Origin: Panopea generosa
Lineage: Eukaryota; Mollusca; Bivalvia; Adapedonta; Hiatellidae
Length of the DNA: 64,000 bases
Assembly: GCA_029582155.1 (NCBI GenBank)
Contig: CM055906.1
Span: forward strand, 16,019,828-16,083,827
Direction: 5' to 3'
The translations under genes and the position numbers were made by a program. Shown here in pieces: positions 3,545 to 59,762 of the stretch; within the stretch, counting starts at the first letter, position 1, and every line of letters begins with the position of its first letter. The notes beneath the pieces are model-generated. The model was not told the origin of the DNA. It did no database searches and was given only the letters and a program-made list of their open reading frames with translations.

Positions 3545-6500
3545 TCCACTACCACATGCTTTATAAAGTGACTGAGCCTCTATCCACCTGACTACCACAT
3601 GCTTTATAAAGTAACTGAGCCTCTTTATCTACCAGTCTACCATATGCTTTATAAAGTGACTGAGCCCCTCTATCCACTAAACTACCACATGCTTTATATA
3701 GTGACTGAGCCACTCTATCCACTAAACTACCACATGCTTTATATAGTGACTGAGCCACTCTATCCATTAGACTACCACATGCTTTATATAGTGACTGAGC
3801 CACTCTATCCACTAGACTACCACATGCTTTATAAAGTGACTGAGCCTCTCTATCCACTAGACTACCACATGCTTTATAAAGTGACTGAGCCTCTCTATCC
3901 ACTAGATTACTACATGCTTTATAAAGTGACTGAGCCTCTATCCACCAGACTACCACATGCTTTATAAAGTAACTGAGCCTCTCTATCTACCAGTCTACCA
4001 TATGCTTTATAAAGTGACTGAGCCCCTCTATCCACTAAACTACCACATGCTTTATAAAGTGACTGAGCCTCTCTATCCACTAGACTACCACATGCTTTAT
4101 ATAGTGACTGAGCCTCTCTATCCACTAGACTACCACATGCTTTATAAAGTGACTGAGCCTCTCTATCCACTAGACTACTACATGCTTTATAAAGTGACTG
4201 GGGCCCCTCTATCCACTAGACTACCACATGCTTTATATAGTGACTGAGTCTCTCTAACCACTAGACTACCACATGCTTTATAAAGTGACTAAGCCTCTCT
4301 AACCACTAGACTACCACATGCTTTATATAGTGACTGAGCCTCTCTATCCACTAGACTACCACATGCTTTATAAAATGAATGAGCCTCTTTATCCACTTTA
4401 TCCGCTAGACTACAACATGCTTTATAAAGTGACTGAGCCTCTCTATCCACTAAACTACCACATGTTTTATAAAGTGACTGAGCCTCTTTATCCACTAGAC
4501 TACCACATCCTTTATAAAGTGACTGAGCCTCTCTATCCACTAAACTACCACATGCTTTATATAGTGACTGAGCCTCTCTATCCACTAAACTACCACATGC
4601 TTTATAAAGTGACTGAGCCTCTCTATCCACTAGACTACCACATGCTTTATAAAGTGACTGGGCCTCTCTATCCACTAAACTACCACATGCTTTATATAGT
4701 GACTGAGCCTCTCTATCCACTAGACTACCACATGCTTTATAAAGTGACTGAGCCTCTCTATCCACTAAACTACCACATGCTTTATAAAGTGACTGAGTCT
4801 CTCTATCCACTAAACTACCACATGCTTTATAAAGTGACTGAGCCTCTCTATCCACTACACTACCACATGCTTTATATAGTTACTGAGCCACTCTATCCAC
4901 TAGACTACCACATGCTTTATAAAGTGACTGAGCCTCTCTATCCACTAAACTACCACATGTTTTATAAAGTGACTGAGCCTCTCTATCCACTAGACTACCA
5001 CATGCTTTATAAAGTGACTGAGCCACTCTATCCACTAGACTACCACATGCTTTATATAGTGACTGAGCCACTCTATTCACTAGACTACCACATGCTTTAT
5101 ATAGTGACTGAGCCACTCTATCCACTAAACTACCACATGCTTTATATAGTGACTGAGCCTATCTATCCACTAAACTACCACATGCTTTATATAGTGACTG
5201 AGCCACTCTATCCACTAGACTACCACATGCTTTATACAGTGACTGAGCCTATCTATCCACTAAACTACCACATGCTTTATATAGTGACTGAGCCACTCTA
5301 TCCACTAGACTACCACATGCTTTATATAGTGACTGAGCCTATCTATCCACTTAACTACCACATGCTTTATATAGTGACTGAGCCTATCTATCCACTGAAC
5401 TACCACATGCTTTATATAGTGACTGAGCCACTCTATCCACTAGACTACCACATGCTTTATATAGTGACTGAGCCTATCTATCCACTTAACTACCACATGC
5501 TTTATATAGTGACTGAGCCACTCTATCCACTAGACTACCACATGCTTTATAAAGTGACTGAGCCACTCTATCCACAAGACTACCACATGCTTTATATAGT
5601 GACTGAGCCACTCTATCCACTAGACTACCACATGCTTTATATAGTGACTGAGCCTATCTATCCACTTAACTACCACATGCTTTATATAGTGATTGAGCCA
5701 CTCTATCCACTAGACTACCACATGCTTTATATAGTGACTGAGCCACTCTATCCACTAGACTACCACATGCTTTATATAGTGACTGAGCCACTCTATCCAC
5801 TAGACTACCACATGCTTTATAAAGTGACTGAGCCTATCTATCCACTAAACTACCACATGCTTTATAAAATGACTGAGCCTATCTATCTACAAAACTACCA
5901 CATGCTTTATATAGTGACTGAGCCACTCTATCCACTAGACTACCACATGCTTTATATAGTGACTGAGCCTATCTATCCACTAAACTACCACATGCTTTAT
6001 ATAGTGACTGAGCCACTCTATCCACTAGACTACCACATGCTTTATAAAGTGACTGAGCCTATCTATCCACTAGACTACCACATGCTTTATAATGTGACTG
6101 AGCCTCTCTATCCACTAGACTACCACATGCTTTATATAGTGACTGAGCCACTCTATCCACTAGACTACCACATGCTTTATAAAGTGACTGAGCCTCTCTA
6201 TCCACTAAACTACCACATGCTTTATATAGTGACTGAGCCACTCTATCCACTAGACTACCACATGCTTTATATAGTGACTGAGCCACTCTATCAACTAAAC
6301 TACCACATGCTATATATAGTGACTGAGCCTCTCTATCCACTAAACTACCACATGCTTTATAAAGTGACTGAGGCTCTATCCACTAAACTACCACATACTT
6401 TATATAGTGACTGAGCCACTCTATCCACTAGACTACCACATGCTTTATATAGTGACTGAGCCTATCTATCCACTAAACTACCACATGCTTTATATAGTGA

Positions 6501-7860
6501 CTGAGCCACTCTATCCACTAGACTACCACATGCTTTATAAAGTGACTGAGCCTCTCTATCCACTAAACTACCACATGCTTTATATAGTGACTGAGCCACT
6601 CTATCCACTAGACTACCACATGCTTTATAAAGTGACTGAGCCTCTCTATTCACTAAACTACCACATGCTTTATATAGTTACTGAGCCTCTCTATCCACTA
6701 GACTACCACATGCTTTATATAGTGACTGAGCCTCTCTATCCACTAAACTACCACATGCTTTATATAGTGACTGAGCCTATCTATCCACTAAACTACCACA
6801 TGCTTTATATAGTGACTGAGCCTCTCTATCCACTAAACTACCACATGCTTTATATAGTGACTGAGCCACTCTATCCACTAGACTACCACATGCTTTATAA
6901 AGTGACTGAGCCTATCTATCCACTAAACTACCACATGCTTTATATAATGACTGAGCCACTCTATCCACTAGACTACCACATGCTTTATAAAGTGACTGAG
7001 CCTCTCTATCCACTAAACTACCACATGCTTTATATAGTGACTGAGCCTATCTATCCACTAAACTACCACATGCTTTATATAGTGACTGAGCCACTCTATC
7101 CACTAGACTACCACATGCTTTATATAGTGACTGAGCCTCTCTATCCACTAAACTACCACATGCTTTATAAAGTGACTGAGCCTCTCTATCCACTAGACTA
7201 CCACATGCTTTATATAGTGACTGAGCCTCTCTATCCACTAAACTACCACATGCTTTATATAGTGACTGAGCCACTCTATCCACTAAACTACCACATGCTT
7301 AATATAGTGACTGAGCCTCTCTATCCACTAGACTACCACATGCTTTATATAGTGACTGAGCCACTCTATCCACTAAACTACCACATGCTTTATAAAGTGA
7401 CTGAGCCTCTCTATCCACTAGACTACCACATGCTTTATATAGTGACTGAGCCTCTCTATCCACTAGACTACCACATGCTTTATAAAGTGACTGAGCCACC
7501 ACATGCTTTATAAAGTGACTGAGCCTCTCTATCCACTAGACTACCACATGCTTTATATAGTGACTGAGCCACTCTATCCACTAGACTACCACATGCTTTA
7601 TATAGTGACTGAGCCTATCTATCCACTAGACTACCACATGCTTTATAAAGTTTCTGAGCCTCTCTATCCACTAAACTACCACATGCTTGATATAGTGACT
7701 GAGCCACTCTATCCACTAGACTACCACATGCTTTATAAAGTGACTGAGCCTCTCTATCCACTAGACTACCACATGCTTTATAAAGTGACTGAGCCTCTCT
7801 ATCCACTAAACTACCACATGCTTTAAATAGTGACTGAGCCACTCTATCCACTAAACTACC
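3545..7860. repeat. 45-bp satellite array, about 96 copies
   Basis: The unit is ctaccacatgctttataaag followed by tgactgagcctctctatcca and ctaga (45 bp). It is highly homogeneous, with a few indel units near 3,590, 4,200, 4,390, 6,370 and 7,495. Because 45 is divisible by 3, the plus strand reads a 15-residue repeat (MLYKVTEPLYPLDYH) for up to 698 residues (4318-6414), and the minus strand reads GSLVDREAQSLYKAC. Variable sites are few and linked: AAAG/ATAG, cctctc/cctatc/ccactc and gac/aac. Each unit carries the palindrome CTTTATAAAG or its broken form CTTTATATAG. Best read as a non-coding satellite. Confidence 0.97.
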
Positions 7861-9012: not shown

Positions 9013-9355
9013 GGCCCAGCACAAATAACCGGTTATTAACTATTGAATAACACTTCAATATCCTAACAGTTTTACAGAATATGATAAACAGTTCATTTAA
9101 CTGTTGTTTTATTGAGTAGCGTAAATGGAGCTTGAATGGACTATCAGCAGGAGAATGGAAAAAACATTTTATTTGAACTATTGACTCAGTAACGGATGAA
9201 ACTGGTTTTGAAAGAATAAGTGGTCAATAGTTCAATTTTAAAGAAATAGGTGGTCAATAGTTAATATTATTTGACCTGTTTAGTTCAGTTTCCAACCAAT
9301 CAGATTTAAGCATTCATAATGATATATAATAAAAAACAATATTACCTTTTGAACT

Positions 9356-9543
9356 GCGTAGAATAAATATTTGGTGGACTTGTTTCATCCTATCCATACA
9401 AAGTTTTCTCGCGTCTGCATGGTTCACCATAGGTACTGGATAGTCTTTTCCCACAATGCACTTGGTTGCTTTCTGGACACTCTCTGGTGTATACAGGGTT
9501 CATAGATATATTGTGGCGGATAACCTTTCAATACAGGTAATGC
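9356..9543 (-). pseudogene. cry: Cryptochrome C-terminal exon (broken)
   Basis: On the minus strand an acceptor (tttgtttccag) precedes the exon and a gtaata donor follows it. One frame reads PVLKGYPPQYIYEP. After a one-base loss inside the expected Trp codon, the next frame reads TPESVQKATKCIVGKDYP, then VPMVNHADARKLCMDRMKQV. This is the conserved C-terminal end of the FAD-binding domain of animal cryptochromes/photolyases (YIYEPW, IxGxDYPxPxVxHxxA, RMKQ). The MVNHA and RMKQV forms look more like cryptochrome than (6-4) photolyase. Relative to the upstream exon about four bases are missing at the start, so this copy cannot encode an intact protein. Introns are retained, so it is a duplicated rather than processed pseudogene, or a locus with read errors. 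Confidence 0.82.
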
Positions 9544-9639
9544 CTGGAAACAAATCACACAATTACTCAGTTATAATCTTGACCTCCAGATCACAACAAA
9601 TGGCTTGAATGTGATATAGTATAGCGGATATATTTTTAG

Positions 9640-9735
9640 TTAAACCATAGCATAATATCAATCACCACAGAGATTGTGACCCTGGCAGGGATTCGATATC
9701 ATGACCACAAGGTACTGGCTGATCCAACCAGTACT
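9640..9735 (-). mobile_element. SINE-A head fragment
   Basis: atcaatcaccacagagattg followed by a B-box-like ggattcgatatc matches the tRNA-proximal part of SINE-A on the minus strand. It lies in the intron between the two cryptochrome exons. Confidence 0.5.
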
Positions 9736-10029
9736 TTGTAAAGAATGTCTGTAATATATATCCTAGCATCATGCATTAACATTTGATATAATAAAGAGTT
9801 GACCTATTAAACCTACTACTGTAAGTTTATTCGGCTGGAAAACCTTCATTCAGACTACCGGTACTTAGATTTTCTTCCTTCAAACCAATTGTCCAAGATA
9901 CTGTTATTGAAATCTCAGCAGCAGGATAAATAAAATACTAGAGAAAAAACTGTTGCTACAAGTTCATTAGATTTGGCACATCAATGTAACACTGCCTCAG
10001 CAGAGCCGACCTTGCCTTTATGCTTTTTA

Positions 10030-10235
10030 ATGGAATTTGACTATTAATCTATACTCATTAAGTTGCCACAACTATAAAGAAGGCTCAGGGCTATTCCGGA
10101 TCATTCTCCAGTCTATTTCCTGGGAAGAACCAGAACTGAGTGTTATTTTTAGAGATGTCTTCCAATTGAGACTGATAATGAACAACTGACCTCTGGCATG
10201 AGCTGCCAACACTATATCCACTGTACTTCCACCCA
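10030..10235 (-). mobile_element. SINE-C copy in cryptochrome intron
   Basis: The reverse complement reads a degenerate tRNA-like head (cagtggatatagtgttggca) followed by ctcagttctggttcttccca and a tail like acttaatgagtatag. The order matches 62,427-62,620 (head, ctcagtactggttctaccca, then aattagtataaa). Two copies in the window support a dispersed family. Confidence 0.6.
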
Positions 10236-10534
10236 GATTATTTGACTATTGACTCTTTGACACATTCTTCTCCATGTCAAAGGCATCACAATGACATCAG
10301 GAGTATAGATAGTCTGAGAGTAATATTAAGCTACTAGTGATTCTGCGATTGTACCAACACCAAAGATACAATACTTGAACAAAAACGATCCATCCTTTAG
10401 CCAGTAACACATTTAAAATAATGTTGTTCATTGTTTTTTTATTTTACACAGTTTACTATTAAAACTGGAATTAATAGTACAGTAAAGTAGTTAAAATTTG
10501 CATGCACATTAACATTTACTGTACGTCTACACAA

Positions 10535-10775
10535 CAAAGCAACATACCTGATAACATCACTACATACCTGACAAAATCGCAACATATCAGATAAAATCAC
10601 AACGTACCTTATAAAATAACAACATACCTAATAAAATCATAACATACCTGATAAATTTAAAAAACATACCTGATAGAATCACAACATACCTGATAAATTC
10701 ACAACATACCTGATAAATTCACAACATACTTGATAAAATCACAACATACCTGATAAAATCATAACATACCTAAGA
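10535..10775 (-). repeat. 20-bp tandem array of a 5' splice-site sequence
   Basis: About twelve units of aaaatcacaacatacctgat. Read on the minus strand, the gene's own strand, each unit is ATCAGGTATGTTGTGATTTT, that is CAG followed by GTATGT, a good 5' splice site. The true exon/intron boundary at 10,961/10,962 has the same 20 bp with one mismatch (10,949-10,968). Seven units keep an intact CAG/GTATG; others are mutated (for example at 10,581, 10,601, 10,621, 10,723 and 10,763). About 170 bp of AT-rich sequence (10,776-10,948) separates the array from the boundary. Confidence 0.88.
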
Positions 10776-10961
10776 TAGCTAATTTCTTTTTTTTTTTTGC
10801 CAGATTTTATTTTTTTATAGTCATCTTCAATAAAAATGGACAAAAATCATGAAAAGAAATTCAACGTTTAGAAAGTCAATAAAAAAATTTGAGTCGAAAG
10901 TAGTTAGGAGCAAGACAAAAAAGTATTTTTTTAAGGACAGTCTAATAAAATCTCAACATAC

Positions 10962-11114
10962 CTGATTAAATCTCCTGTTGGATCTGCCTGCTTACTAATG
11001 CCAACAGGATAGTAAGAGTAGAGGATATTGTTAAAAGAATGAACTACACGACAGCCGCAACCACATGCCCGCATTCACCGACCAATCAGCATCCAACAAC
11101 AGCTTGTCAAACAC
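10962..11114 (-). pseudogene. cry: Cryptochrome FAD-domain exon (broken)
   Basis: On the minus strand an acceptor (catatttacag) precedes the exon and donor CAG/GTATGT follows it. It reads [16 protein letters not shown], then a block ending LSCSSFF, which is a hallmark of the cryptochrome/photolyase FAD-binding domain (DADWSxNAGxWxWLSxSxFF). The next codon is TAA where the family has Gln, two codons later one extra C shifts the frame, and the shifted frame continues LYSYYPVGISKQADPTGD, then LIR, matching the family CPVGFGxxTDPxGDYIR block. The exon order is correct for a minus-strand gene running from here to 9,356. Upstream exons (photolyase domain, most FAD contacts) were not found up to about 13 kb, so the copy is partial as well as mutated. 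Confidence 0.85.
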
Positions 11115-17625: not shown

Positions 17626-20600
17626 AGCGGACATTGTGCGCGTTCCGTTTTACGGAATGTTTGTTTCCCTGGCTCATTGTGTTTTTCCCATGTTAAGAAT
17701 TGTATTTTCCTCGCTCGTTGTGCTTGTTCCATGTCAAGAATTGTTTGTTTCCCTGGCACGTTGTGTGTATTCCATGTTAAGGAAGTTTTGTTTCCCTGAC
17801 ACGTTGTGCTTGTTCCATGTTAAGGATTGTTTGTTTTCCTTGCACGTTGTATGTGTTCCATGTTCAGGTTTGTGTGTTTCCCTGGCACGTTGTGCGTGTT
17901 CCATGTTAAGGATTTGTTTATTTCTGTGGCACATTGTGCGTGTTTCATGTTAAGGATTGTTGTCCTGGCACGTTGTGCGTGTTCCATGTTAATGATTGTG
18001 TGTTTCCGTGGCACATTGTGCGTGTTTCATGCTAAGGATTGTTGTCCTGGCACGTTGTACGTGTTCCATGTTAAGGGGTGTGTGTTTCCCTGTCACGTTG
18101 TGCGTGTTCCATGTTAAGGATTGTTTGTTTCCGTGGCACATTGTGCGTGTTTCATGCTAAGGATTGTTGTCCTGGCACGTTGTATGTGTTCCATGTTAAA
18201 GATTGTGTGTTTCCCTGACACGTTGTGCGTGTTCCATGTTAAGGATTGTGTGTTTCCCTGGTACGTTGTATGTGTTCCATGTTAAAGATTGTTTGTTTCC
18301 GTGGCACATTGTGCGTGTTTCATGATAAGGATTGTTGTCCTGACACGTTGTGCTTGTTCCATGTTAAGGATTGTGTGTTTCCCCGGCACGTTGTGCGCGT
18401 TCCATGTTAAGGATTGTTTGTTTCTGTGGCACATTGTGCGTGTTTCATGCTAAGGATTGTTGTCCTGGCATGTTGTGCGTGTTCCATGTTAAGGATTGTG
18501 TGTTTCCCTGTCACATTGTGCGTGTTCCATGTTAAGGATTGTTTGTTTCCGTGGCACATTGTGCGTGTTTCATGATAAGAATTGTTGTCCTGGCACGTTG
18601 TGCGTGTTCCATGTTAAGGATTGTGTCTTTCCCTGACACATTGTGCGTGTTCCATGTTAAGGATTGTTTGTTTCCGTGGTACATTGTGCGTGTTCCATGT
18701 TAAGGATAGTTTGTTTCCCTGGCACGTTGTTCGTGTTCCATGTTAAGGATTGTGTGTTTCCCTGACACGTTGTGCGTGTTCCATGTTAAGAATTGTGTGT
18801 TTTCCTTGCACGTTGTATGTGTTCCATGATAAGGTTTGTGTGTTTCCCTGGCACGTTGTGCGTGTTCCATGTTAAAGATTGTTTGTTTCTGTGGCACATT
18901 GTGCGTGTTTCATGTTAAGGATTGTTGTCCTGACACGTTGTGCTTGTTCCATGTTAAGGATTGTGTGTTTCCCCGGCACGTTGTGCGTGTTCCATGTTAA
19001 GGATTGTTTGTTTCCGTGGCACATTGTGTGTGTTTCATGCTAAGGAATGTTGTCCTGGCATGTTGTGCGTGTTCCATGTTAAGGATTGTGTCTTTCCCTG
19101 ACACATTGTGCGTGTTCTATGTTAAGGATTGTTTGTTTCCGTGGTACATTGTGCGTGTTCAATGTTAAGGATTGTTTGTTTCCCTGGCACGTTGTTTGTG
19201 TTCCATGTTAAGGATTGTGTGTTTCCCTGACACGTTGTGTGTGCTCCATGTTAAGGATTGTTTGTTTACCTGGAACGTTGTGCGTATTTCATGTCAATGA
19301 TTGTTTGTTTTCCTGGTACATTGTGCGTGTTTCATGATAAGGATTGTTGTTTCCCTGGCACGTTGTTTGTGTTCCATGTTAAGGATTGTGTTTTTCCCTG
19401 ACACGTTGTGCGTGTTCCATGATAAGGGTTGTTTGTTTCCCTGGCACGTTGTGCGTGTTCCATGTAAAGGATTGTTTGTTTCTTTGGCACATTGTGCGTG
19501 TTTCATGCGAAGGATTGTTGTCCTGGCACGTTGTGCTTGTTTCATGCTAAGGATTGTTGTTCCCTAGCACGTTGGCTGTGCGTGTTCTGTGTGATTGTTG
19601 TTGTCCTGGCACGTTGTGCGTGTTCCATGTTAGGATTGTTTGTTTCCTGGCACGTTGTGCGAGTTCCATATTAAAGATTGTTTGTTTCCCTGGCACATTG
19701 TGCGTGTTTCATGTTCAGGAATGTTTGTTTCCCTGGCACGTTGTGCGTGTTTAATGCGAAAGATTGTTGTCCTGACACGTTGTATGTGTTTCATGATAGA
19801 ATTGTTTGTTTCCCTGGCACGTTGTGCGAGTTCCATGTTAAAGATTGTTTGTTTCCCTGGCACTTTGTGCGTGTTTCATGTTAAGGATTGTTTGTTTCCC
19901 TGGCACGTTGTGCGTGTTCCATGTTAAAGATTGTTTGTTTCCCTGGGTCAGTGTGCGTGTTTCATGCTTAGGATTGTTGTTTCCCTGGCACATTGTGCGT
20001 GTTTCATGCTAAGGATTGTTGTTTCCCTGGTACGTTGTGCGTGTTCCATGTTAAGGATTGGTTGTTTCCCTAGCACGTTATGCGTGTTCCATATAAAGGA
20101 TTGTTTGTTTCCCTGACACGTTGTGCGTGTTTCATGCTAAAGATTGTTGTTTCCCTGACACGTTGTGCGTGTTTCATGCTGAGAATTGTTGTTTCCCTGA
20201 CACGTTGTGCATGTTTCATGTTAAGGATTGTTTGTTTCCCTGGCACATTGTGCGTGTTCGATGTTAAAGATTGTTTGTTTCCCTGGCACGTTGTGCATGT
20301 TTCATGCTAAGGATTGTTGTTTCCCTGGCACGTTCTGTGTGTTCTATGTGATTGTTGTTTCCCTGGTACGTTGTGCGTGTTCCATGTTAAGGATTGGTTG
20401 TTTCCCTGGCATGTTGTGTGTGTTTCATGCTAAGGATTGTTGTTTCCCTGACACGTTGTGCATGTTCCATGTTAAGGATTGTTGTTTCCCTGACACGTTG
20501 TGCGTGTTCCATGTTAAGGATTGTTTGTTTCCCTGACACATTGTGCGTGTTTCGTGCTAAGGATTGTGGTTTACTTGACACGTTGTGTGTGTTTCATGCT

Positions 20601-23600
20601 GAGAATTGTTGTTTCCCTGACACGTTGTGCGTGTTTCATGTTAAGGATTGTTTGTTTCCCTGGCACATTGTGCGTGTTCGATGTTAAATATTGTTTGTTT
20701 CCCTGGCACGTTGTGCATGTTTCATGCTAAGGATTGTTGTTTCCCTGGCACGTTCTGTGTGTTCTATGTGATTGTTGTTTCCCTGGTACATTGTGCGTGT
20801 TCCATGTTAAGGATTGGTTGTTTCCCTGGCATGTTGTGCGTGTTTCATGCTAAGGATTGTTGTTTCCCTGACACGTTGTGCATGTTCCATGTTAAGGATT
20901 GTTGTTTCCCTGACACGTTGTGCGTGTTCCATGTTAAGGATTGTTTGTTTCCCTGACACATTGTGCCTGTTTCGTGCTAAGGATTGTGGTTTACTTGACA
21001 CATTGTGTGTGTTTCATGCTAAGGATTGTTGTTTCCCTGACCCGTTTTGTGTGTTTCATGCTAAGGATTGTTGTTTCCCTGATACGTTGTGCGTGTTTTA
21101 GGCTAAGGATTGTTGTATCACTGATACGTTGTGCGTGTTCCATGTTAAGGATTGTTGTTTCCCTGACACGTTGTGCATGTTCCATGCTAAGGATTGTTGT
21201 TTCCCTGATACGTTGTGCGTGTTTCATGCTAAGGATTGTTGTTTACCTGACACGTTGTGCATGTTCCATGTTAAGGATTGTTGTTTCCCTGATACGTTGT
21301 GCGTGTTCCATGTTAAGGATTGTTGTTTCCCTGACACGTTGTGCATGTTCCATGTTAAGGATTGTTGTTTACTTGACACGTTGTGCGTGTTTCATGTTAA
21401 GGATTGTTGTTTCCCTGACACGTTGTGCATGTTCCATGTTAAGGATTGTTGTTTCTTTGATACGTTGTGCATGTTCCATGTTAAGGATTGTTGTTTCCCT
21501 GATACGTTGTGCGTGTTCCATGTTAAGGATTGTTGTTTACTTGACACGTTGTGCATGTTCCATGTGATTGTTGTTTCCCTGATACGCTGTGCGTGTTCCA
21601 TGTTAAGGATCGTTGTTTCCCTGGTACGTTGTGCGTGTTCCATGTTAAGGATTGTTGTTTCCCTGATACGTTGTGCATGTTTCATGCTAAGGATTTTTGT
21701 TTCCCTGACACATTGTGCGTGTTTCGTGCTAAGGATTGTGGTTTACTTGACACGTTGTGTGTGTTTCATGCTAAGGATTGTTGTTTCCCTGACCCGTTGT
21801 GTGTGTTTCATGCTAAGGATTGTTGTTTCCCTGATACGTTGTGCGTGTTTCAGGCTAAGGATTGTTGTTTCCCTGATACGTTGTGCGTGTTCCATGTTAA
21901 GGATTGTTGTTTCCCTGACACGTTGTGCATGTTCCATGCTAAGGATTGTTGTTTCCCTGATACGTTGTGCGTGTTTCATGCTAAGGATTGTTGTTTCCCT
22001 GACACGTTGTGCATGTTCCATGTTAAGGATTGTTGTTTCCCTGATACGTTGTGCGTGTTCCATGTTAAGGATTGTTGTTTCCCTGACACGTTGTGCATGT
22101 TCCATGTTAAGGATTGTTGTTTACTTGACACGTTGTGTGTGTTTCATGTTAAGGATTGTTGTTTCCCTGACACGTTGTGCATGTTCCATGTTAAGGATTG
22201 TTGTTTCCCTGATACGTTGTGCATGTTCCATTTTAAGGATTATTGTTTCCCTGATACGTTGTGCGTGTTCCATGTTAAGGATTGTTGTTTACTTGACACG
22301 TTGTGCATGTTCCATGTGATTGTTGTTTCCCTGATACGTTGTGCGTGTTCCATTTTAAGGATTGTTGTTTCCCTGATACGTTGTGCGTGTTCCATGTTAA
22401 GGATCGTTGTTTCCCTGGTACGTTGTGCGTGTTCCATGTTAAGGATCGTTGTTTCCCTGGTACGTTGTGTGTGTTCCATGTTAAGGATTGTTGTTTCCCT
22501 GATACGTTGTGCTTGTTTCATGCTAAGGATTGTTGTTTCCCTGACACGTTGTGCATGTTTCATGCTAAGGATTGTTGTTTCCCTGACACGTTGTGCGTGT
22601 TCCATGTTAAGGATTGTTTGTTTCCCTGACACATTGTGCGTGTTTCTTGCTAAGGTTTGTTGTTTACTTGACACGTTGTGTGTGTTTCATGCTAAGGATT
22701 GTTGTTTCCCTGACCCGTTGTGTGTGTTTCATGCTAAGGATTGTTGTTTCCCTGGCACATTGTGCGTGTGTCATGCTAAGGATTGTTGTTACCCTGGCAC
22801 GTTGTGTGTTTTTCATGCTAAGGATTGTTGTTTCCCTGGCACATTGTGTGTGTTTCATGCTAAGGATTGTTGTTTCCCTGACCCGTTGTGCGTGTTTCAT
22901 GCTAAGGATTGTTGTTTCCCTGGCACATTGTGCGTGTTCCATGTTAAGGATTGGTGTTTTCTGACACGTTGTGAGTGTTTCATGTTAAGGATTGTTGTTT
23001 CCCTGGCACGTTGTGTGTTTTTCATGCTAAGGATTGTTGTTTCCCTGGCACATTGTGTGTGTTTCATGCTAAGGATTGTTGTTTCCCTGACCCGTTGTGC
23101 GTGTTCCATGTTAAGGATTGTTGTTTCCCTGGTACGTTGTGCGTGTTTCATGCTAAGGATTGTTGTTTCCCTGGCACATTGTGCGTGTGTCATGCTAAGG
23201 ATTGTTGTTTCCCTGGCACGTTGTGTGTTTTTCATGCTAAGGATTGTTGTTTCCCTGGCACATTGTGTGTGTTTCATGCTAAGGATTGTTGTTTCCCTGA
23301 CCCGTTGTGCGTGTTTCATGCTAAGGATTGTTGTTTCCCTGGCACATTGTGCGTGTTCCATGTTAAGGATTGGTGTTTTCTGACACGTTGTGCGTGTTTC
23401 ATGTTAAGGATTGTTGTTTCCCTGGCACGTTGTGTGTTTTTCATGCTAAGGATTGTTGTTTCCCTGGCACATTATGTGTGTTTCATGCTAAGGATTGTTG
23501 TTTCCCTGGCACATTGTGCGTGTGTCATGCTAAGGATTGTTGTTTCCCTGGCACGTTGTGTGTTTTTCATGCTAAGGATTGTTGTTTCCCTGGCACATTG

Positions 23601-24208
23601 TGTGTGTTTCATGCTAAGGATTGTTGTTTCCCTGACCCGTTGTGCGTGTTCCATGTTAAGGATTGTTGTTTCCCTGGCACGTTATGCGTGTTCCATGTTA
23701 AGGATTGTTGTTTCCCTGGTACGTTGTGCGTGTTTCATGCTAAGGATTGTTGTTTCCCTGGCACATTGTGCGTGTGTCATGCTAAGGATTGTTGTTTCCC
23801 TGGTACGTTGTGCGTGTTTCGTGTTAAGGATTGTTGTTTCCCTGGCACGTTGTGCGTGTTCCATGTTAAAGATTGTTGTTTCCCTGACACGTTGTGCGTG
23901 TTCCATAGGAAGGATTGTTGTTTCCCTGGCACGTTATGCGTGTTCCATGTTAAGGATTGTTGTTTCTCTGGCACGTTATGCGTGTTCCATGTTAAGGATT
24001 GTTGTTTCCCTGGCACGTTGTGCGTGTTCCATGTTAAGGATTGTTGTTTCCCTGGCACGTTTTGCGTGTTTCATGCTAAAGATTGTTGTTTCCCTGACAC
24101 GTTGTGCGTGTTTCATGTTAAGGATTGTGTTTCCCTGACACGTTGTGCGTGTTTCATGTTAAGGATTGTTGTTTCCCTGGCACGTTGTGCGTGTTCCATG
24201 ATACAAGC
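17626..24208. repeat. 42-bp satellite array with higher-order repeats, about 155 copies
   Basis: Core unit ttgtttccctgacacgttgt followed by gcgtgttccatgttaaggat and tg. From 17.6 to about 20.1 kb units of 38-39, 42 and 43 bp are mixed; from about 20.1 kb 42-bp units dominate, so long ORFs appear: plus strand CCFPDTLCVFHVKD (up to 610 residues, 21,551-23,383) and minus strand MEHAQRVRETTILN. Second-level periods are visible: 420 bp (20,221 with 20,641), 752 bp (21,041 with 21,793; one unit is 38 bp) and 419 bp (22,951 with 23,370). Most units carry the short inverted pair ACACG/CGTGT. Homogenisation of blocks indicates recent unequal exchange. Confidence 0.97.
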
Positions 24209-29113: not shown

Positions 29114-29277
<164 letters not shown>

Positions 29278-35449: not shown

Positions 35450-35735
35450 TTGGCTGACTAAATATTCAGCATCATTTTTTGCCATTGAGGGCTAGCAGAC
35501 AATCAGTTATCCTAACCACTGTTTCCTGAGATCCTGGAAGGTTAACCAGTACTCAAGCACACCGCATCTCCGCAAGTAACGGATAACATTCCCACTTGAA
35601 TCAGAAGTGAGGGATGAATGATAATGAGATGCAATATTGTATATCGAACAGACTGTGGCTGGGCGGGGATTCAAACTCACTACCCCTGGATTGATAGACA
35701 GATGTGCTACCCACTGAGCTACATGTAATTGGGCC
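35450..35735 (-). mobile_element. SINE-A, full length
   Basis: Complete on the minus strand: tRNA-like head with atgtagctcagtgggtagca (A box) and agtttgaatccccg (B box), then the family body to a left-hand tail. The 109-codon minus ORF here is a by-product. Confidence 0.85.
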
Positions 35736-37542: not shown

Positions 37543-38115
37543 TATGCCTCCCCAAAAAATGTTTTTGGGTGGCATATAGTAATCGCAGCGTCCGTCCATC
37601 CGTCCGTCCGTCCTTCCGTCCTTCCGTCCGGTATTTCGTTTCCGGCCTGTAACTTTGTCATGCATAGATGGATTTTGTTGATACATGCTTCAAATGATCA
37701 ACATAGTATAACAACGTGTCGCGAGTAAGACCCACACCCGTACCTCAAAGGTCAAAGTCACAATTTGAGTTTGTTTGACAACACTTTCAGTTTGTGTGAG
37801 ATGTCGTTTCCAGCCTGTAACTTTCTCATGCATAGATGGATTTTGTTGATACTTGCTACAAATGATCAACATATCATGACGACGTGTCGCGAGTAAGACT
37901 CACACCCATACCTAAAAGGTCAAGGTCACAATTTGAGTTTGTTTGACAACACTTTCAGTTTGTGTGAGATTTCGTTTCCGGCCTGTAACTTTGTCATGCA
38001 TTGATGGATTTTGATGATACTTGCTACAAATGATCAACATTACATATTTTTATTTTGACAGACCATTTGGGGGGCATGTGACACTTAACAGTGACACTTA
38101 ACAGTGACATTTCTT
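37543..38115 (+). mobile_element. Pearl/Helentron-like non-autonomous element
   Basis: Starts with a hairpin (atgcctccccaaaaaat and its near complement tttttgggtggcat), then gtaatcgcagcgtccgtcc with a (GTCC)n tract, then 168-bp core repeats (gtaactttgtcatgcatag at about 37,650, 37,818 and 37,986), and ends ggggggcatgtgacacttaa cagtgacatttc. This hairpin, tetranucleotide, core-repeat and 3' tail order is characteristic of bivalve pearl elements, often grouped with Helitron/Helentron derivatives. No ORF. Confidence 0.8.
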
Positions 38116-41299: not shown

Positions 41300-44200
41300 T
41301 TGGATAGGTGTTGGTGTGGTGATGTGGTGTTGGTGTGATATGTGGGGTGGTTGATTGTTGGTGTGGTGTTGTGTGATATGTGTGGTGGTTGATTGTTGGT
41401 GTGGTGTTGGTGTGATATGTGGGGTGGTTGATTGTTGGTGTGGTGTTGGTGTGATACGTGAGGTGGTTGATTGTTGGTGTGGTGTTGGTGTGATATGTGG
41501 GGTGGTTGGATGATGATGTGGTGTTGATGTGATATGTGGTGTTGGATGTTGTTGTGGTGTTGGTGTGATATGTTGGGTGGTTGATGGTTGGTGTGGTGTT
41601 GGTGTGATACGTGGGGTGGTTGGATGATGATGTGGTGTTGATGTGATATGTGGTGTTGGATGTTGTTGTGGTGTTGGTGTGATATGTTGGGTGGTTGATG
41701 GTTGGTGTGGTGTTGGTGTGATATGTGGGGTGGTTGGATGTTGTTGTGGTGTTGGTGTGATATGTGGGTTGGTTGGATGTTGGTGTGGTGTTGGTGTGAT
41801 ATGTGGGGTGGTTGATTGTTGATGTAGTGTTGGTGTGATATGTGGGGTGGTTGATTGTTGGTGTGATGTTGGTGTGATATGTGGGGTGGTTGATTGTTGA
41901 TGTGGTGTTGGTGTGATATGTGGGGTGGTTGATTGTTGATGTGGTGTTGGTGTGATATGTGGGGTGGTTGATTGTTGATGTGGTGTTGATGTGATATGTG
42001 GGGTGGTTGGATGTTGGTGTGGTGTTGGTGTGATATGTGGGGTGGTTAATTGTTGATGTGGTGTTGGTGTGATATGTGGGGTGGTTGATTGTTGATGTGG
42101 TGTTGGTGTGATATGTGGGGTGGTTGGATGTTGGTGTGGTGTTGGTGTGATATGTGGGTTGGTTGGATGTTGGTGTGGTGTTGGTGTGATATGTGGGGTG
42201 GTTGATTGTTGATGTAGTGTTGGTGTGATATGTGGGGTGGTTGATTGTTGGTGTGATGTTGGTGTGATATGTGGGGTGGTTGATTGTTGATGTGGTGTTG
42301 GTGTGATATGTGGGGTGGTTGATTGTTGATGTGGTGTTGGTGTGATATGTGGGGTGGTTGAATGTTGATGTGGTGTTGGTGTGATATGTGGGGTGGTTGG
42401 TTGTTGATGTGGTGTTGGTGTGATATGTGGGGTGGTTGGTTGTTGATGTGGTGTTGATGTGATATGTGGGGTGGTTGATTGTTGGTGTGGTGTTGGTGTG
42501 ATATGTGGGGTGGTTGGTTGTTGATGTGGTGTTGGTGTGATATGTGGGGTGGTTGGTTGTTGATGTGGTGTTGATGTGATATGTGGGGTGGTTGGTTGTT
42601 GATGTGGTGTTGATGTGATATGTGGGGTGGTTGATTGTTGGTGTGGTGTTGGTGTGATATGTGGGGTGGTTGGTTGTTGGTGTGGTGTTGGTGTGATATG
42701 TGGGGTGGTTGATTGTTGGTGTGGTGTTGGTGTGATACGTGGGGTGGTTGGATGATGATGTGGTGTTGATGTGATATGTGGGGTTGTTGGTTGTTGATGT
42801 GGTGTTGATGTGATATGTGGGGTGGTTGATTGTTGGTGTGGTGTTGGTGTGATACATGGGGTGGTTGATTGTTGGTGTGGTGTTGGTGTGATATGTGGAG
42901 TGGTTGATTGTTGGTGTGGTGTTGGTGTGATACGTCGGGTGGTTGGATGATGATGTGGTGTTGATGTGATATGTGGGGTGGTTGGTTGTTGATGTGGTGT
43001 TGATGTGATATGTGGGGTGGTTGATTGTTGGTGTGGTGTTGGTGTGATATGTGGGGTGGTTGATTGTTGGTGTGGTGTTGGTGTGATACGTGAGGTGGTT
43101 GATTGTTGGTGTGGTGTTGGTGTGATACATGGGGTGGTTGGATGATGATGTGGTGTTGATGTGATATGTGGTGTTGGATGTTGTTGTGGTGTTGGTGTGG
43201 TATGTTGGGTGGTTGATGGTTGGTGTGGTGTTGGTGTCATACGTGGGGTGGTTGGATGTTGTTGTGGTGTTGGTGTGATATGTTGGGTGGTTGATGGTTG
43301 TTGTGGTGTTGATGTGATATGTGGGGTTGTTGGTTGTTGATGTGGTGTTGGTGTGATATGTGGGGTGGTTGGATATTGATGTGGTGTTGGTGTGATATGT
43401 TGGGTGGTTGATTGTTGATGTGGTGTTGATGTGATACGTGGGGTGGTTGGTTGTTGATGTGGTGTTGATGTGATATGTGGGGTGGTTGATTGTTGGTGTG
43501 GTGTTGGTGTGCTATGTGGGGTGGTTGATTGTTGATGTGGTGTTGATGTGATACGTGGGGTGGTTGGTTGTTGATGTGGTGTTGATGTGATATGTGGGGT
43601 GGTTGATTGTTGGTGTGATGTTGGTGTGCTATGTGGGGTGGTTGATTGTTGATGTGGTGTTGATGTGATATGTGGGGTGGTTGGTTGTTGATGTGATATG
43701 TGGGGTGGTTGGTTGTTGATGTGGTGTTGATGTGATATGTTGGGTGGTTGGATATTGATGTGGTGTTGGTGTGATATGTGGGGTGGTTGATTGTTGATGT
43801 GGTGTTGATGTGATATGTGGGGTGGTTGATTGTTGATGTGGTGTTGGTGTGATATGTGGGGTGGTTGGTTGTTGATGTGGTGTTGATGTGATATGTGGGA
43901 TGATTAGTTGTAAGTGATGTGGTGTTGGTGTGATATGTGGGGTGGTTGATTGTTGATGTGGTGTTGATGTGATATGTGGGGTGGTTGATTGTTGATGTGG
44001 TGTTGGAGTGCTATGTGGGGTGGTTGATTGTTGGTGTGGTGTTGGAGTGCTATGTGGGGTGGTTGGTTGTTGATGTGGTGTTGATGTGATATGTGGGGTG
44101 GTTGGTTGTTGATGTGATATGTGGGGTGGTTGGTTGTTGATGTGGTGTTGATGTGATATGTTGGGTGGTTGGATATTGATGTGGTGTTGGTGTGATATGT

Positions 44201-45335
44201 GGGGTGGTTGATTGTTGATGTGGTGTTGATGTGATATGTGGGGTGGTTGATTGTTGATGTGGTGTTGGTGTGATATGTGGGGTGGTTGGTTGTTGATGTG
44301 GTGTTGATGTGATATGTGGGATGATTAGTTGTAAGTGATGTGGTGTTGGTGTGATATGTTGGGTGGTTGATTGTTGATGTGGTGTTGATGTGATATGTGG
44401 GGTGGTTGATTGTTGATGTGGTGTTGGAGTGCTATGTGAGGTGGTTGATTGTTGGTGTGGTGTTGGAGTGCTATGTGGGGTGGTTGATTGTTGATGTGGT
44501 GTTGGTGTGATATGTGGGGTGGTTGATTGTTGATGTGGTGTTGATTTGATATGTGGGGTGGTTGATTGTTGATGTGGTGTTGATGTGATAGGTGGGGTGG
44601 TTGGTTGTTGATGTGGTGTTGATGTGATATGTGGGATGATTAGTTGTAAGTGATGTGGTGTTGGTGTGATATGTGGGATGGTTGATTGTTGATGTGGTGT
44701 TGATGTTGATGTGGGGTTGTTGATTGTTGATGTGGTGTTGGAGTGCTATGTGGGGTGGTTGATTGTTGGTGTGGTGTTGGAGTGCTATGTGGGGTGGTTG
44801 GTTGTTGATGTGGTGTTGGTGTGATATGTGGGGTGGTTGATTGTTGATGTGGTGTTGATGTGATATGTTGGGTGGTTGATTGTTGATGTGGTGTTGATGT
44901 GATATGTGGGGTGGTTGATTGTTGGTGTGGTGTTGGTGTGCTATGTGGGGTGGTTGATTGTTGGTGTGGTGTGTGATATGTGGGGTGGTTGGTTGTTTAT
45001 GTGGTGTTGATGTGATATGTGGGGTGGTTGATTGTTGGTGTGGTGTTGGTGTGATATGTGGGGTGGTTGGTTGTTGGTGTGGTGTTGGTGTGATATGTGG
45101 GGTGGTTAATTGTTGGTGTGGTGTTGTGTGATATGTGGGGTGGTTGATTGTTGGTGTGGTGTTGGTGTGATATGTGGGGTGGTTGATTGTTGGTGTGGTG
45201 TTGGTGTGATATGTGGGGTGGTTGGTTGTTGGTGTGGTGTTGGTGTGATATGTGGGTTGGATGATTGTTAGTGTGGTGTTGGTGTGCTATGTGGGGTGGT
45301 TGGTTGTTGGTGTGGTGTTGGTGGATGCAGCTATA
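41300..45335. repeat. 39-bp satellite array with higher-order repeats, about 103 copies
   Basis: Unit tgatatgtggggtggttgat followed by tgttggtgtggtgttggtg, on a strongly purine/T-biased plus strand. Variants exchange gttggtg for gttgatg and ttgatt for ttggtt or ttggat. The minus strand is open in two frames: TYHTNTTPTINHP (691 residues, 41,055-43,130) and TPHQQSTTPHI (659 residues, 41,261-43,240), both Thr/His/Pro-rich. Ten-unit blocks repeat with 390 bp (41,761 with 42,151), and a block marked by tgattagttgtaagtgatg recurs at 43,901, 44,322 and 44,637 (steps 421 and 315). Confidence 0.97.
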
Positions 45336-47867: not shown

Positions 47868-48690
47868 TCATGTCCCCCCCAAAAAAATTTTTTGGGTGGC
47901 ATATAGTAATCGCAGCGTCCGTCCGTCCGTCCGTCCGTCCGTCCGTCCGTCTTTCTGTCCATCCGGGCAGACAAATGGGTATTTAAGTGTCTAGGGTTTA
48001 GGGTTAGTAATTTTTATGGACAGTTGAAAAGCTGTTGAAAAAACATTAAGTGGCTGTTCTAGACACTTAAAAAACAGCTCTTAGGTGGCTTTTTTCTCTT
48101 ACGTGGCTAAAATTTAGCCACACAAGTAATACGATTGATGCAAAGAAGCCACTTAAATACCCATTTGTGAGAACGTCCGTCCGTCTGTCCATCGGTCCTT
48201 CCGTCTGGTATTTCATTTCCGGCCTGTAACTTTGTCATGCATAGATGGATTTTGTTGATACTTGCTACAAATGATCAACATAGTATAACGACATGTCTCG
48301 AGTAAGACCCATGCCCGTACCTCAAAGGTCAAAGTCACAATTTGAGTTTGTTTGACAACACTTTGAGTTTGTGTGAGATTTCATTTCCAGCCTGTAACTT
48401 TCTCATGCATAGATGGATTTTGTTGATACTTGCTACAAATGATCAACATAACATGACGACGTGTTGTGAGTAAGACCCACACCCATACCTCAAAGGTCAA
48501 GGTCATAATTTGAGTTTGTTTGACAACACTTTCAGTTTGTGTGAGATTTCGTTTCCAGCCTGTAACTTTCTCATGCATTGATTGATTTGTTGATACTTGC
48601 TACAAATGATCAACATAACATATCATATATTTTTATTTTCACAGACCATTTGGGGGGCATGTGACACTTAACAGTGACATTTCTTATTTT
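47868..48690 (+). mobile_element. Pearl/Helentron-like element, second copy, carrying a MITE
   Basis: Same architecture as 37,543: hairpin start (cccaaaaaaattttttgggtggc), gtaatcgcagcgtccgtcc with a (GTCC)n tract, 168-bp core repeats (48,228, 48,396 and 48,564) and the 3' end ggggggcatgtgacac, cagtgacatttctt. The tetranucleotide tract is split by a palindromic element at 47,971-48,168. Confidence 0.82.
47971..48168. mobile_element. 198-bp MITE with perfect 19-bp inverted ends
   Basis: ACAAATGGGTATTTAAGTG (47,971-47,989) is the exact reverse complement of 48,150-48,168. Inside, TTTAAGTGTCTAG (47,982) pairs with CTAGACACTTAAA (48,059), and gtggctaaa pairs with tttagccac near 48,110. No ORF and no clear TSD. 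Confidence 0.85.
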
Positions 48691-49979: not shown

Positions 49980-50885
49980 ATTACCAAAAAAGGATGTCCT
50001 ACCATCTTGTATGTTCTGTTATGACCGTTCCTTAAACACCACCTATAAGGATGTCCTACCATATTGTATGTTCTGTTATGACTGTTCCTCAAACACCAGC
50101 TATAAGGATGTCCTACCATCTTGTATGTTCTGTTATGACCGTTCCTCAAACACTAGCTATAAAGGTGTCCTATTGTCTTGTATGTTCTGTTCTCACTGTT
50201 CCTCAAACACCAGTTATAAGGATGTCCTACCATCTTGTCTGTTCTGTTATCACTGTTCCTCTAACACCAGCTATAAGGATGTCCTTTCTATTATGACCGT
50301 TCCTCAAACACCAGCTATAAGGATGTCCTACCATCTTGTATGTTCTGTTATCACTGTTCCTCAAACACCAGCTATAAGGATGTCCTACCATCTTGTATGT
50401 TCTGTTATCACTGTTCATCTTACACCAGCTGTAAGGATGTCCTACCATCTTGTATTTTCTGTTATGACCGTTCCTCAAACACCAGCTATAAGGATGTCCT
50501 ACCATCTTGTATGTTCTGTTATCACTGTTCCTCAAACACCAGCTATAAGGATGTCCTACCATCTTGTATGTTCTGTTATCACTGTTCCTCAAACACCAGC
50601 TATAAGGATGTCCTACCATCTTGTATTTTCTGTTATGACAGTTCCTCAAACAACAGATATAAGGATGTCCTACCATCTTGTATGTTCTGTTACCACTGTT
50701 GTTCAAACACCAGCTATAATGATGTCCTACCATCTTGTATTTTCTGTTATGACAGTTCCTCAAACAACAGATATAAGGATGTCCTACCATCTTGTATGTT
50801 CTGTTCTCACTTCCTCAAACATCAGCTATAAGGATGTCCTAACATCTTGTATGTTCTGTTATGACCGTTCCTCAAACACAACTAC
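49980..50885. repeat. 57-bp satellite array, first block, about 16 copies
   Basis: Unit ctataaggatgtcctaccat, cttgtatgttctgttatcac, tgttcctcaaacaccag. Plus strand reads SSNTSYKDVLPSCMFCYHC and minus strand MVGHPYSWCLRNSDNRTYK, both open over hundreds of bases because 57 is divisible by 3. Confidence 0.96.
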
Positions 50886-51117
50886 ATTGAAAGTATACAT
50901 TTTGGTTTTTAAAATTATTTCATTATTGGCTAAGTTTATTCATGTGATGGAAAATGAACTGATTTTTTCTTATTGTTTTGCTTTGAAATGAATTAAATGT
51001 TTGTTTTTTGATTCAACAATATGATGAAATATAAATATACAAAATTTATATGCAATACATTTATTGTTCCTTGACCTGTTGACGTTTATAGGTATGTATA
51101 CTTTCTTTTTCCTTTCA
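50886..51117. other. Unique spacer between two blocks of the 57-bp array
   Basis: AT-rich, no repeat unit and no recognised element. It interrupts the array between a normal unit and cactgtataatgatgtcc, where the repeats resume. Confidence 0.7.
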
Positions 51118-53556
51118 CTGTATAATGATGTCCTACCATCTTGTATGTTCTGTTATCACTGTTCCTCTAACACCAGCTATAAGGATGTCCTTCCATCTTG
51201 TATGTTCTGTTCCTCAAACACCAGCTATAAGGATGTCCTACCATCTTGTATGTTCTGTTATCACTGTTCCTCAAACACCAGCTATAAGGATGTCCTACCA
51301 TCTTGTATGTTCTGTTATCACTGTTTCTCAAACACCAGCTATAAGGATGTCCTACCATCTTATATGTTCTGTTATCACTGTTCCTCTAACACCAGCTATA
51401 AGGATGTCCTACCATCTTGTACGTTCTGTCATCACTGTTCCTCTAACACTAGCTATAAGGATGTCCTACCATCTTATATGTTCTGTCATCATTGTTCTTC
51501 AAACACCAGCTATAAGGATGTCCTACCATCTTGTATGTTCTGTTATTACTGTTCCTCTAACACCAGCTTTAAGGATGTCCTACCATCTCATATGTTCTGT
51601 CATCACTGTTCCTCAAACACCAGCTATAAGGATGACCTACCATCTTGTATGTTCTGTTTTGACCGTTCCTCAAACACCAGCTATTAGGATGTCCTACTAT
51701 CTTGTATGTTATGTTATCACCATTCCTCAAACACCAGCTATAAGGATGACCTACCATCTTGTATGTTCTGTTTTGACCATTCCTCAAACAACAGCTATAA
51801 GGATGTCCTACCATCTTGTATGTTATGTTATCACCATTCTTCAAACAACAGCTATAATGATGTCCTACCATCTTGTATGTTATGTTATCACTGTTCCTCA
51901 AACACCAGCTATAAGGATGACCTACCATCTTGTATGTTCTGTTTTGACTGTTCCTCAAACACCAGCTATAAGGATGTCCTACTATCTTGTATGTTATGTT
52001 ATCACCATTCCTCAAACAACAGCTATAATGATGTCCTACCATCTTGTATGTTATGTTATCACCGTTCCTTAAACAACAGCTATAATGATGTCCTACCATC
52101 TTGTATGTTATGTTATCACCATTCCTTAAACACCAGCTATAAGGATGTCCTACCATCTTGTATGTTATGTTATGACCATTCTTCAAACAACAGCTATAAT
52201 GATGTCCTACCATCTTGTATGTTCTGTTATCACCGTTCCTCAAACACCAGCTATAATGATGTCCTACCATCTTGTATGTTATTTTATCACCGTTCCTTAA
52301 ACACCAGCTATAAGGATGTCCTACCATATTGTATGTTCTGTTATCATCGTTCCTTAAACACCAGCCATAAGGATGTCCTACCATCTTGTATGTTCTGTTA
52401 TCACCGTTCCTTAAACACCAGCTATAAGGATGTCCTACCATCTTGTATGTTCTGTCATCACTGTTCCTCTAACACCAGCTATAAGGATGTCCTTCCATCT
52501 TGTATGTTCTGTTCCTCAAACACCAGCTATAAGGATGTCCTACCATCTTGTATGTTCTGTTATCACTGTTCCTCAAACACCAGCTATAAGGATGTACTAC
52601 CATCTTGTATGTTCTGTTATCACTGTTCCTTAAACACCAGCTATAAGGATGTCCTACCATCTCATATGTTCTGTCATCACTGTTCCTCAAACACCAGCTA
52701 TAAGGATGTCCTACCATCTTGTATGTTCTGTCATCACTGTTCCTCAAACACCAGCTATAAGGATGTACTACCATCTTGTATGTTCTGTTATGACCGTTCC
52801 TCAAACACCAGCTATAAGGCTGTCCTACCATCTCATATGTTCTGTCATCACTGTTCCTCAAACACCAGCTATAAGGATGTCCTACCATCTTTTATGTTCT
52901 GTTATGACCGTTCATCAAACACCAGCTATAAGGATGACCTACCATCTTGTTTGTTCTGTTTTGACCGTTCCTCAAACAACAGCTATAATGATGTCCTACC
53001 ATCTTGTATATTATGTTATCACTGTTCCTTAAACACCAGCTATAAGGATGTCCTACCATCTCATATGTTCTGTCATCACTGTTCCTCAAACACCAGCTAT
53101 AAGGATGTCCTACCATCTTTTATGTTCTGTTATGACTGTTCCTCAAACACCAGCTATAAGGATGACCTACCATCTTGTTTGTTCTGTTTTGACCGTTCCT
53201 CAAACAACAGCTATAATGATGTCCTACCATCTTGTATGTTATGTTATCACCGTTTCTTAAACACCAGATATAAGGATGACCTACCATATTGTTTGTTCTT
53301 TTTTGACCATTCCTCAAACACCAGCTATAATGATGTCCTACCATCTTGTATGTTCTGTTATCACCATTCCTTAAACACCAGCTATAATGATGTCCTACCA
53401 TCTTGTATGTTATGTTATCACCGTTCTTTAAACACCAGCTATAATGATGTCCTACCATCTTGTATGTTCTGTTTTGACCGTTCCTCAAACAACAGCTATA
53501 AGGATGTCCTATCATCTTGTATGTTATGTTATCACTGTTCCTTAAACACCAGCTAA
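51118..53556. repeat. 57-bp satellite array, second block, about 43 copies
   Basis: Same unit as 49,980-50,885, with a 616-codon plus ORF (51,706-53,556). A 42-bp short unit (tgttctgttcctcaaac) occurs at 51,201 and 52,502 in the same context, showing a 1,301-bp duplication; a block near 52,890 recurs 228 bp later (four units). Confidence 0.96.
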
Positions 53557-58954: not shown

Positions 58955-59762
58955 AATGTGTTGAGTAATAACTAAATTTGCATAATATAGCTAATAGCAA
59001 AATACATAATTTATTTATTTTTAAAATTTTGGCCTCCATCATGGCCCCTTTTGCCAATGCTAATCACCTCAATAATTATTTTACTGTACATTGACTTTTT
59101 AATTATTATTACCAGATATGGTACTGTCAAGAATCTGCCTTAAAGGTCTGTACAATTCCTAAAAAAAGAAAGACTTCTCCCCCACATGAACATGTGAGAA
59201 CCCTGCTTTGATAGATAACATTTGTATGTGCCTGGGAAAGACAAGTCATACGTGGCACATCTTGTTTACATCACAGGGATGTTTTTACCAATAAACATTC
59301 AGAAGAAGCATACAATTTTCTTTTAAAAGGAACAGCTTGCCTGTTTGAGTATGTGAAATTATAAGTATTTTGTAGGTAAACGATACTTTAATTGGTATAA
59401 GAGCACTTCAATTATTGGTGGTGGGGGGGGGGGGGGGGGGGGGGATCCCAGTCATGGCATACTAAATTGTGTTTTGAAATAAACAACAAAAGTAGGGTCT
59501 GCACCTTAAAATCAAACAAAAATACCAGGGTTACCTAAATTTATTTACATGGGAGATGCTTATACTCCTACAGCGTTGGTAATCCGTGTATTAAAATATA
59601 CTAGTCCGCATATCATTCATAGTCTTGATCATCTACAAATCTAGTGCCAGTACTTGTATAGTGGCCTATTTATAAAAACATGTTTAATGATTGGATAAAC
59701 TGAAACAAGTAGACCTTTAAGAAAGGAAATCGTAGAAGGTGGCCAAAACTATACCACATTGT
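58955..59762. other. Intergenic with a 22-G tract
   Basis: Nothing gene-like. An uninterrupted G run lies at 59,423-59,444. Confidence 0.45.

Follow-up and report, generated by a model that had tools for sequence, protein, structure and literature searches.

A tandem array of twelve 20-bp units lies inside an intron of a broken cryptochrome copy, and its repeat unit is homologous to the 5′ splice site of the exon about 190 nt upstream. The window analyzed was the whole 64-kb stretch of DNA, and the cryptochrome copy is on its reverse strand. Judging from the conserved cryptochrome coding content of its exon share, the array was very probably derived from this exon/intron junction. We consider it highly likely that it arose by neutral tandem expansion across the exon edge in a cryptochrome copy that has since decayed, that a spacer was inserted later, and that the many donor sites are a by-product.

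The array was detected by TRF at positions 10540–10771 (−) with a period of 20, 11.5 copies, and the consensus CAACATACCTGATAAAATCA. A fixed-register alignment anchored on the donor gave 12 units, spaced by 20 nt except for one step of 22 nt. The earlier note had placed a roughly twelvefold 20-bp array at 10,535–10,775, and both methods recovered it. In gene orientation, the consensus was GTGATTTTATCAG/GTATGTT. In the edge unit, the exon part could not be recognised.

The host was identified with a tblastn search using human CRY1 as the query. The exon A fragment at 10962–11114 (−) corresponds to about residues 380–430 of CRY1 and carries an in-frame stop and a frame shift (tblastn, translation, and PDB matches). 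The exon B fragment at about 9346–9543 (−) corresponds to about residues 431–489 (tblastn and Pfam). Exon A matched with E 2e-13 and exon B with E 1e-13, each as two HSPs in different frames. A query joined from the pieces of both exons matched cryptochromes in the PDB. Pfam analysis placed FAD_binding_7 at exon B (E 2.8e-6); among the three cryptochrome pieces, two matched this family, one of them below the cut-off, and one short piece had no match. The intron holding the array extends from 9544 to 10961 (−), as delimited by the acceptor and the exon positions. It is in phase 2 and leads from the ...IR end of exon A to the HYL-like start of exon B. The acceptor before exon B was TTTGTTTCCAG/G. 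The 3′ end of exon B is uncertain, with a candidate donor at 9345.

No open frame runs through the exons as in a functional cryptochrome. One stop and three putative frame shifts interrupt it, the third being suggested at the start of exon B by the splice phase. No further convincing cryptochrome exon was found in the 64-kb window, including about 53 kb upstream, and the matches span about CRY1 residues 378–489. Four other CRY1 tblastn matches, with E values from 3.1 to 9.1 and two on the opposite strand, were taken as chance. Among them is a weak match at 35660–35704 (+), covering CRY1 residues 330–344 with 53% identity over 15 residues (E 3.1). The host thus looks like a broken, intron-bearing, two-exon remnant of a cryptochrome gene. 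Less likely, it is a gene whose introns are very long and whose sequence contains assembly errors; the frame shifts could partly be assembly errors, and the missing exons could lie beyond the window.

The sequence of the unit was compared with the junction of exon A. The real junction was GAGATTTAATCAG/GTATGTT, with the 5′ splice site CAG/GTATGT at 10961 (−). The putative founder unit at 10955–10974 (−), made of the last 13 nt of exon A and the first 7 nt of the intron, was identical to the array consensus at 18 of 20 positions. Outside the array, no 20-mer on either strand of the 64-kb window matched the unit better than the exon/intron junction, where three 20-mers within 10945–10966 agreed at 19/20. 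The exon's 5′ splice site is part of the unit, and junction 20-mers were identical to the unit at 18–19 of 20 positions. The 19/20 match claimed previously therefore holds for these three 20-mers; at 10949–10968, where it had been located, the identity was 18/20. The unit had also been described as ATCAG plus the intron start. It does span the junction, and its exon share reaches beyond ATCAG to 13 nt. With the junction 20-mer as the query and up to 6 mismatches allowed, 13 matches were obtained: the junction itself, 11 in the array, and one at 59,012, which differed by 6 mismatches.

Aligning the units to the junction had been suggested as a check in the earlier note, and the identity proved to be above chance. 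A wrap-around alignment of the unit with exon A and the early intron scored 47 over 31 nt (10942–10972), a score reached in 0 of 300 dinucleotide shuffles (mean 14.6, maximum 25). The other segments stayed within chance. The exon alone, cut at the junction, scored 17, equalled in 34 of 300 shuffles, indicating that the exon share alone is not significant. Without its last bases, the exon scored 12, a value reached by 274 of 300 shuffles. The downstream flank of the array also scored 12 (290 of 300), and the remainder of the intron scored 18 (43 of 100).

These values bear on the reading that the array was born elsewhere and imported, or that its likeness to the junction is a chance product of AT-rich words and the donor consensus. 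An unrelated 172-nt spacer parts the array from the junction, and the exon share alone is within chance, as this reading would have it. On the other hand, exon end and intron start jointly match over 31 nt beyond any of the 300 shuffles, and no further copy of the array occurs elsewhere in the 64-kb window. A 29-base array pattern, searched exactly, had 0 matches in the viral and 0 in the prokaryote contig collections; these are non-eukaryote collections, and the result has little weight for eukaryote DNA. We regard import or chance likeness as very improbable.

The similarity to the unit continued past the junction. Directly behind it, GAGATTTTATTAG at 10942–10954 (−) opens a second unit and matches the exon half of the array consensus at 11 of 13 positions. 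In this second half unit, GAG is common to the exon and TTTT is common to the array. The half unit beside the junction thus appears to be an intermediate state between exon and array, though few sites are involved.

The exon share of the unit encodes the GD-x-IR motif of cryptochromes, which read GDYIR in all nine alignments shown. The junction read GDLIR in the exon frame. In the same frame, the 12 units read ISYLR (edge), YDFIR (twice), CDFIK, CEFIR (twice), CDSIR, FKFIR, CYFIR, CDFI-stop, CDFVR, and SDVIR. Eleven of them were at most one residue away from DFIR and two were exact, a reading that depends on the DNA match to the junction and is not evidence independent of it. Phenylalanine at the third motif position was absent from the alignments shown, which all had tyrosine. 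Because this exon share belongs to the conserved coding sequence of cryptochrome, the array very probably derives from the junction. The direction from exon junction to array is probable, as an intronic repeat is an unlikely source for conserved coding sequence. The earlier note had claimed that an exon–intron junction was amplified inside the downstream intron, and the 31-nt match together with the coding conservation supports this well.

Between the half unit and the array lies the spacer at 10770–10941 (−), which is 172 nt long, AT-rich, and has TTAG at both ends. It carried no unit signal. Degenerate units within it were considered and rejected, as 10780–10941 scored 14 and 140 of 300 shuffles did as well. 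The spacer is in phase with the repeat: when its flanks were rejoined across it, they formed one unit with 2 mismatches of 20. This suggested that the spacer is probably a later insertion within one unit of the array, the second, and that the array formerly adjoined the exon directly, again with probability rather than certainty. The phase agreement could be due to chance, for which we estimate a probability of around 1 in 20 or a little higher, the edges being unclear. Four-base identity is expected in about 0.6% of random position pairs, and the two terminal TTAG copies of the spacer may be left over from the unit and not mark an insertion. The spacer was also considered as a dispersed repeat, and this was rejected since the window held no convincing second copy. 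Its best other matches in the window had E 0.002 and 0.006 and fell over its A-run; the rest were 12–16 nt long.

The units were scored as splice donors with a human donor matrix; scores of 8 or more were called strong. By this matrix, 10 of the 12 units were strong predicted donors (8.18–9.76). Seven had exactly CAG/GTATG and equalled the real donor at 9.76, in agreement with the earlier claim of at least seven intact CAG/GTATG donors. Three further units reached 8 with TAG/GTATG (two units) or AAG/GTACG (one unit). A weaker unit, CAA/GTATG, had lost the −1 G and scored 6.42, and one of the 12 units had no GT. Predicted pairing with the U1 5′ end was −6.4 to −9.9 kcal/mol for the ten strong units and −8.3 kcal/mol for the real donor. 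The rest of the window contained 39 sites scoring at least 8 (both strands, the real donor counted), with at most three in any 246-nt stretch of one strand outside the array. The array is a real concentration of donor sequences.

The donor core (−3 to +6) was compared with the other positions of the unit. Leaving out the edge unit, 6 of 99 core positions were changed versus 13 of 121 elsewhere (P = 0.24). With all 12 units, 7 of 108 were changed versus 19 of 132 (P = 0.06). The tally was made in the fixed register over all 12 units, since a set of 11 units chosen by their donor pattern would be inherently biased toward the core. Neither P value was significant, and selection on the core was rejected. 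There may be weak constraint, the core having fewer changes in absolute terms and P being 0.06 with all units.

A working splicing element would offer another explanation of this donor density: the units would act as alternative or decoy donors or bind U1, tuning or silencing a transcribed cryptochrome copy. Ten of 12 units have donors equal or close to the real one, at a density unmatched in the window, and the similar ABCA7 VNTR supplies an alternative donor, its length correlating with skipping of the next exon, as described in PMC5954066. Several observations count against it. Both exons of the copy are broken, the donor core is not significantly more conserved than the rest, and one unit lacks the GT and another the −1 G. 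The ABCA7 isoform retaining a unit makes up about 2% and is unaffected by VNTR length, according to the same source (PMC5954066). The intron behind the junction contains stop codons in all three frames, so splicing at any array donor would take in intron sequence with stops in all frames. We therefore consider a working splicing element unlikely. Somewhat less likely still is that the array arose in a working cryptochrome gene and persists in an intact copy here or in relatives, where about a dozen equal donors would compete with the true one and set full-length output, and of which the present fragment would be a decayed duplicate.

The unit could also be read as acceptor and donor in one (TTTTATCAG/GTATGT), forming sites like those of recursive splicing or tiny nested introns in the manner of AGGT intron gain. 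Most units indeed consist of a T-rich run, CAG, and then a strong donor. Most spliceable introns are longer than 20–40 nt, which argues against such a reading. A fission yeast precedent does exist, in which a 24-bp AGGT-containing exonic repeat has introns across repeats, as reported in PMC4974935. In the array, the acceptor halves are weak. By a rough score, their mean was −0.5 over 9 of the 12 units, the edge unit (−0.4) and two units without AG being left out, versus 2.95 for the acceptor of exon B. Ten percent of all AG sites on the same strand reach −0.5. Recursive splice sites in the array were rejected given these weak acceptor halves, and combined acceptor–donor units are extremely improbable.

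The array was also compared with known systems. The earlier note knew of no standard name for such a structure; the ABCA7 VNTR and the IFI6/6-16 minisatellite are precedents. The VNTR in intron 18 of ABCA7 has a 25-bp unit and begins with the donor of exon 18, as described in PMC5954066. According to that paper, the donor one unit downstream is used in about 2% of transcripts, which retain one unit; this share is unchanged by VNTR length, and length correlates with skipping of exon 19 (PMC5954066). As far as the ABCA7 description goes, both are short-unit minisatellites behind an exon and carry that exon's own donor. They differ in detail. The ABCA7 VNTR is described as having a C-rich 25-bp unit starting at GT and as being polymorphic (alleles of 315 to 9711 bp are mentioned) in a working gene. 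In the present array, the unit is AT-rich, 20 bp long, and takes in 13 nt of exon; there are 12 units, the host is a broken gene fragment, and a spacer lies in between.

The IFI6 (6-16, G1P3) minisatellite provides multiple splice donor sites, according to the title of Turri, Cuin and Porter (1995). Two downstream repeat units are described as acting as donors, resulting in three mRNA species (PMC4526556). As far as these descriptions go, it resembles the present array in having minisatellite units with several donors, those here being predicted from the sequence, and differs in that IFI6 is a working interferon-induced human gene. Its unit is reportedly 12 bp long and located at the end of exon 2. 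On anatomy, the array appears to belong to the same kind of donor-bearing minisatellite as those of ABCA7 and IFI6.

A further comparison was made with the Rogers model, in which tandem duplication of an AGGT-containing segment leads to intron gain, as presented in PMC4974935. In both cases, an AG/GT-bearing sequence is multiplied by tandem duplication. As described there, intron gain starts from an exonic segment and makes a new intron; here, in contrast, AGGT spans a junction that was already present, and the copies are located within the intron that was there before. The array is thus not a duplicated exonic AGGT segment creating a new intron. Among the papers listed by the literature searches, none on a cryptochrome donor array was found, which is no proof of absence. 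The present case adds an example to a class known from human genes. One sequence here appears to record a minisatellite born across an exon/intron junction, with its likely direction and an intermediate state. Repeat length in ABCA7 is associated with disease risk and with changes in splicing, according to PMC5954066.

The proposed course of events is as follows. A short tandem duplication, by replication slippage or unequal exchange, would have copied a 20-bp segment across the junction, 13 nt of it exonic and 7 nt intronic. The repeat would then have grown to about 13 units inside the cryptochrome intron, as in any minisatellite, and this expansion would be tolerated because the first unit leaves the exon end and donor intact. 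The 172-nt sequence may have been inserted later within the second unit, and decay would have left two exons of the cryptochrome copy itself. The donor-like sequences would be passengers, set by where the duplication started. In a transcribed locus, the array sites could pair with U1 as well as the real donor does and compete for it. We infer both the slippage mechanism and its neutrality. Among the roles proposed in the earlier note, the best fit is slippage whose start at a splice site was accidental, because the surrounding gene is broken and the donor core has no significant extra conservation; the array may have a decoy or U1 function, but nothing here calls for one.

The window is very rich in minisatellites, which fits an expansion-prone genome. 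Very large minisatellite or satellite arrays occur at 3548–7860, 17634–24200, 41320–45323, 49990–53555, and 59928–61969, with units of 45, 42, 39, 57, and 165 bp, respectively, and occupy about a third of the window. The 39-bp array at 41320–45323 is G-rich, and its strand asymmetry is extreme (GC skew +0.97 over 42,001–44,000).

The rest of the window was also surveyed. Outside the arrays, 23 long frames were listed and 13 were scanned against Pfam; three and another nine of these had no match, and one had a match below the cut-off (E 0.083). Rfam found nothing in the window at the gathering threshold. ARAGORN indicated a tRNA-Ala(cgc)-like sequence at 1120–1191 (−), which had no Rfam match at the gathering threshold and may be the head of a tRNA-derived SINE. 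Two places, 37636–38040 and 48210–48622, contained 168-bp tandem units that are very similar to each other, with a (CGTC)n run before each (37589–37630 and 47916–47951, respectively). They may represent a dispersed repeat family that carries short tandem arrays of its own. A perfect (TGAT)41 microsatellite was located at 29114–29277.
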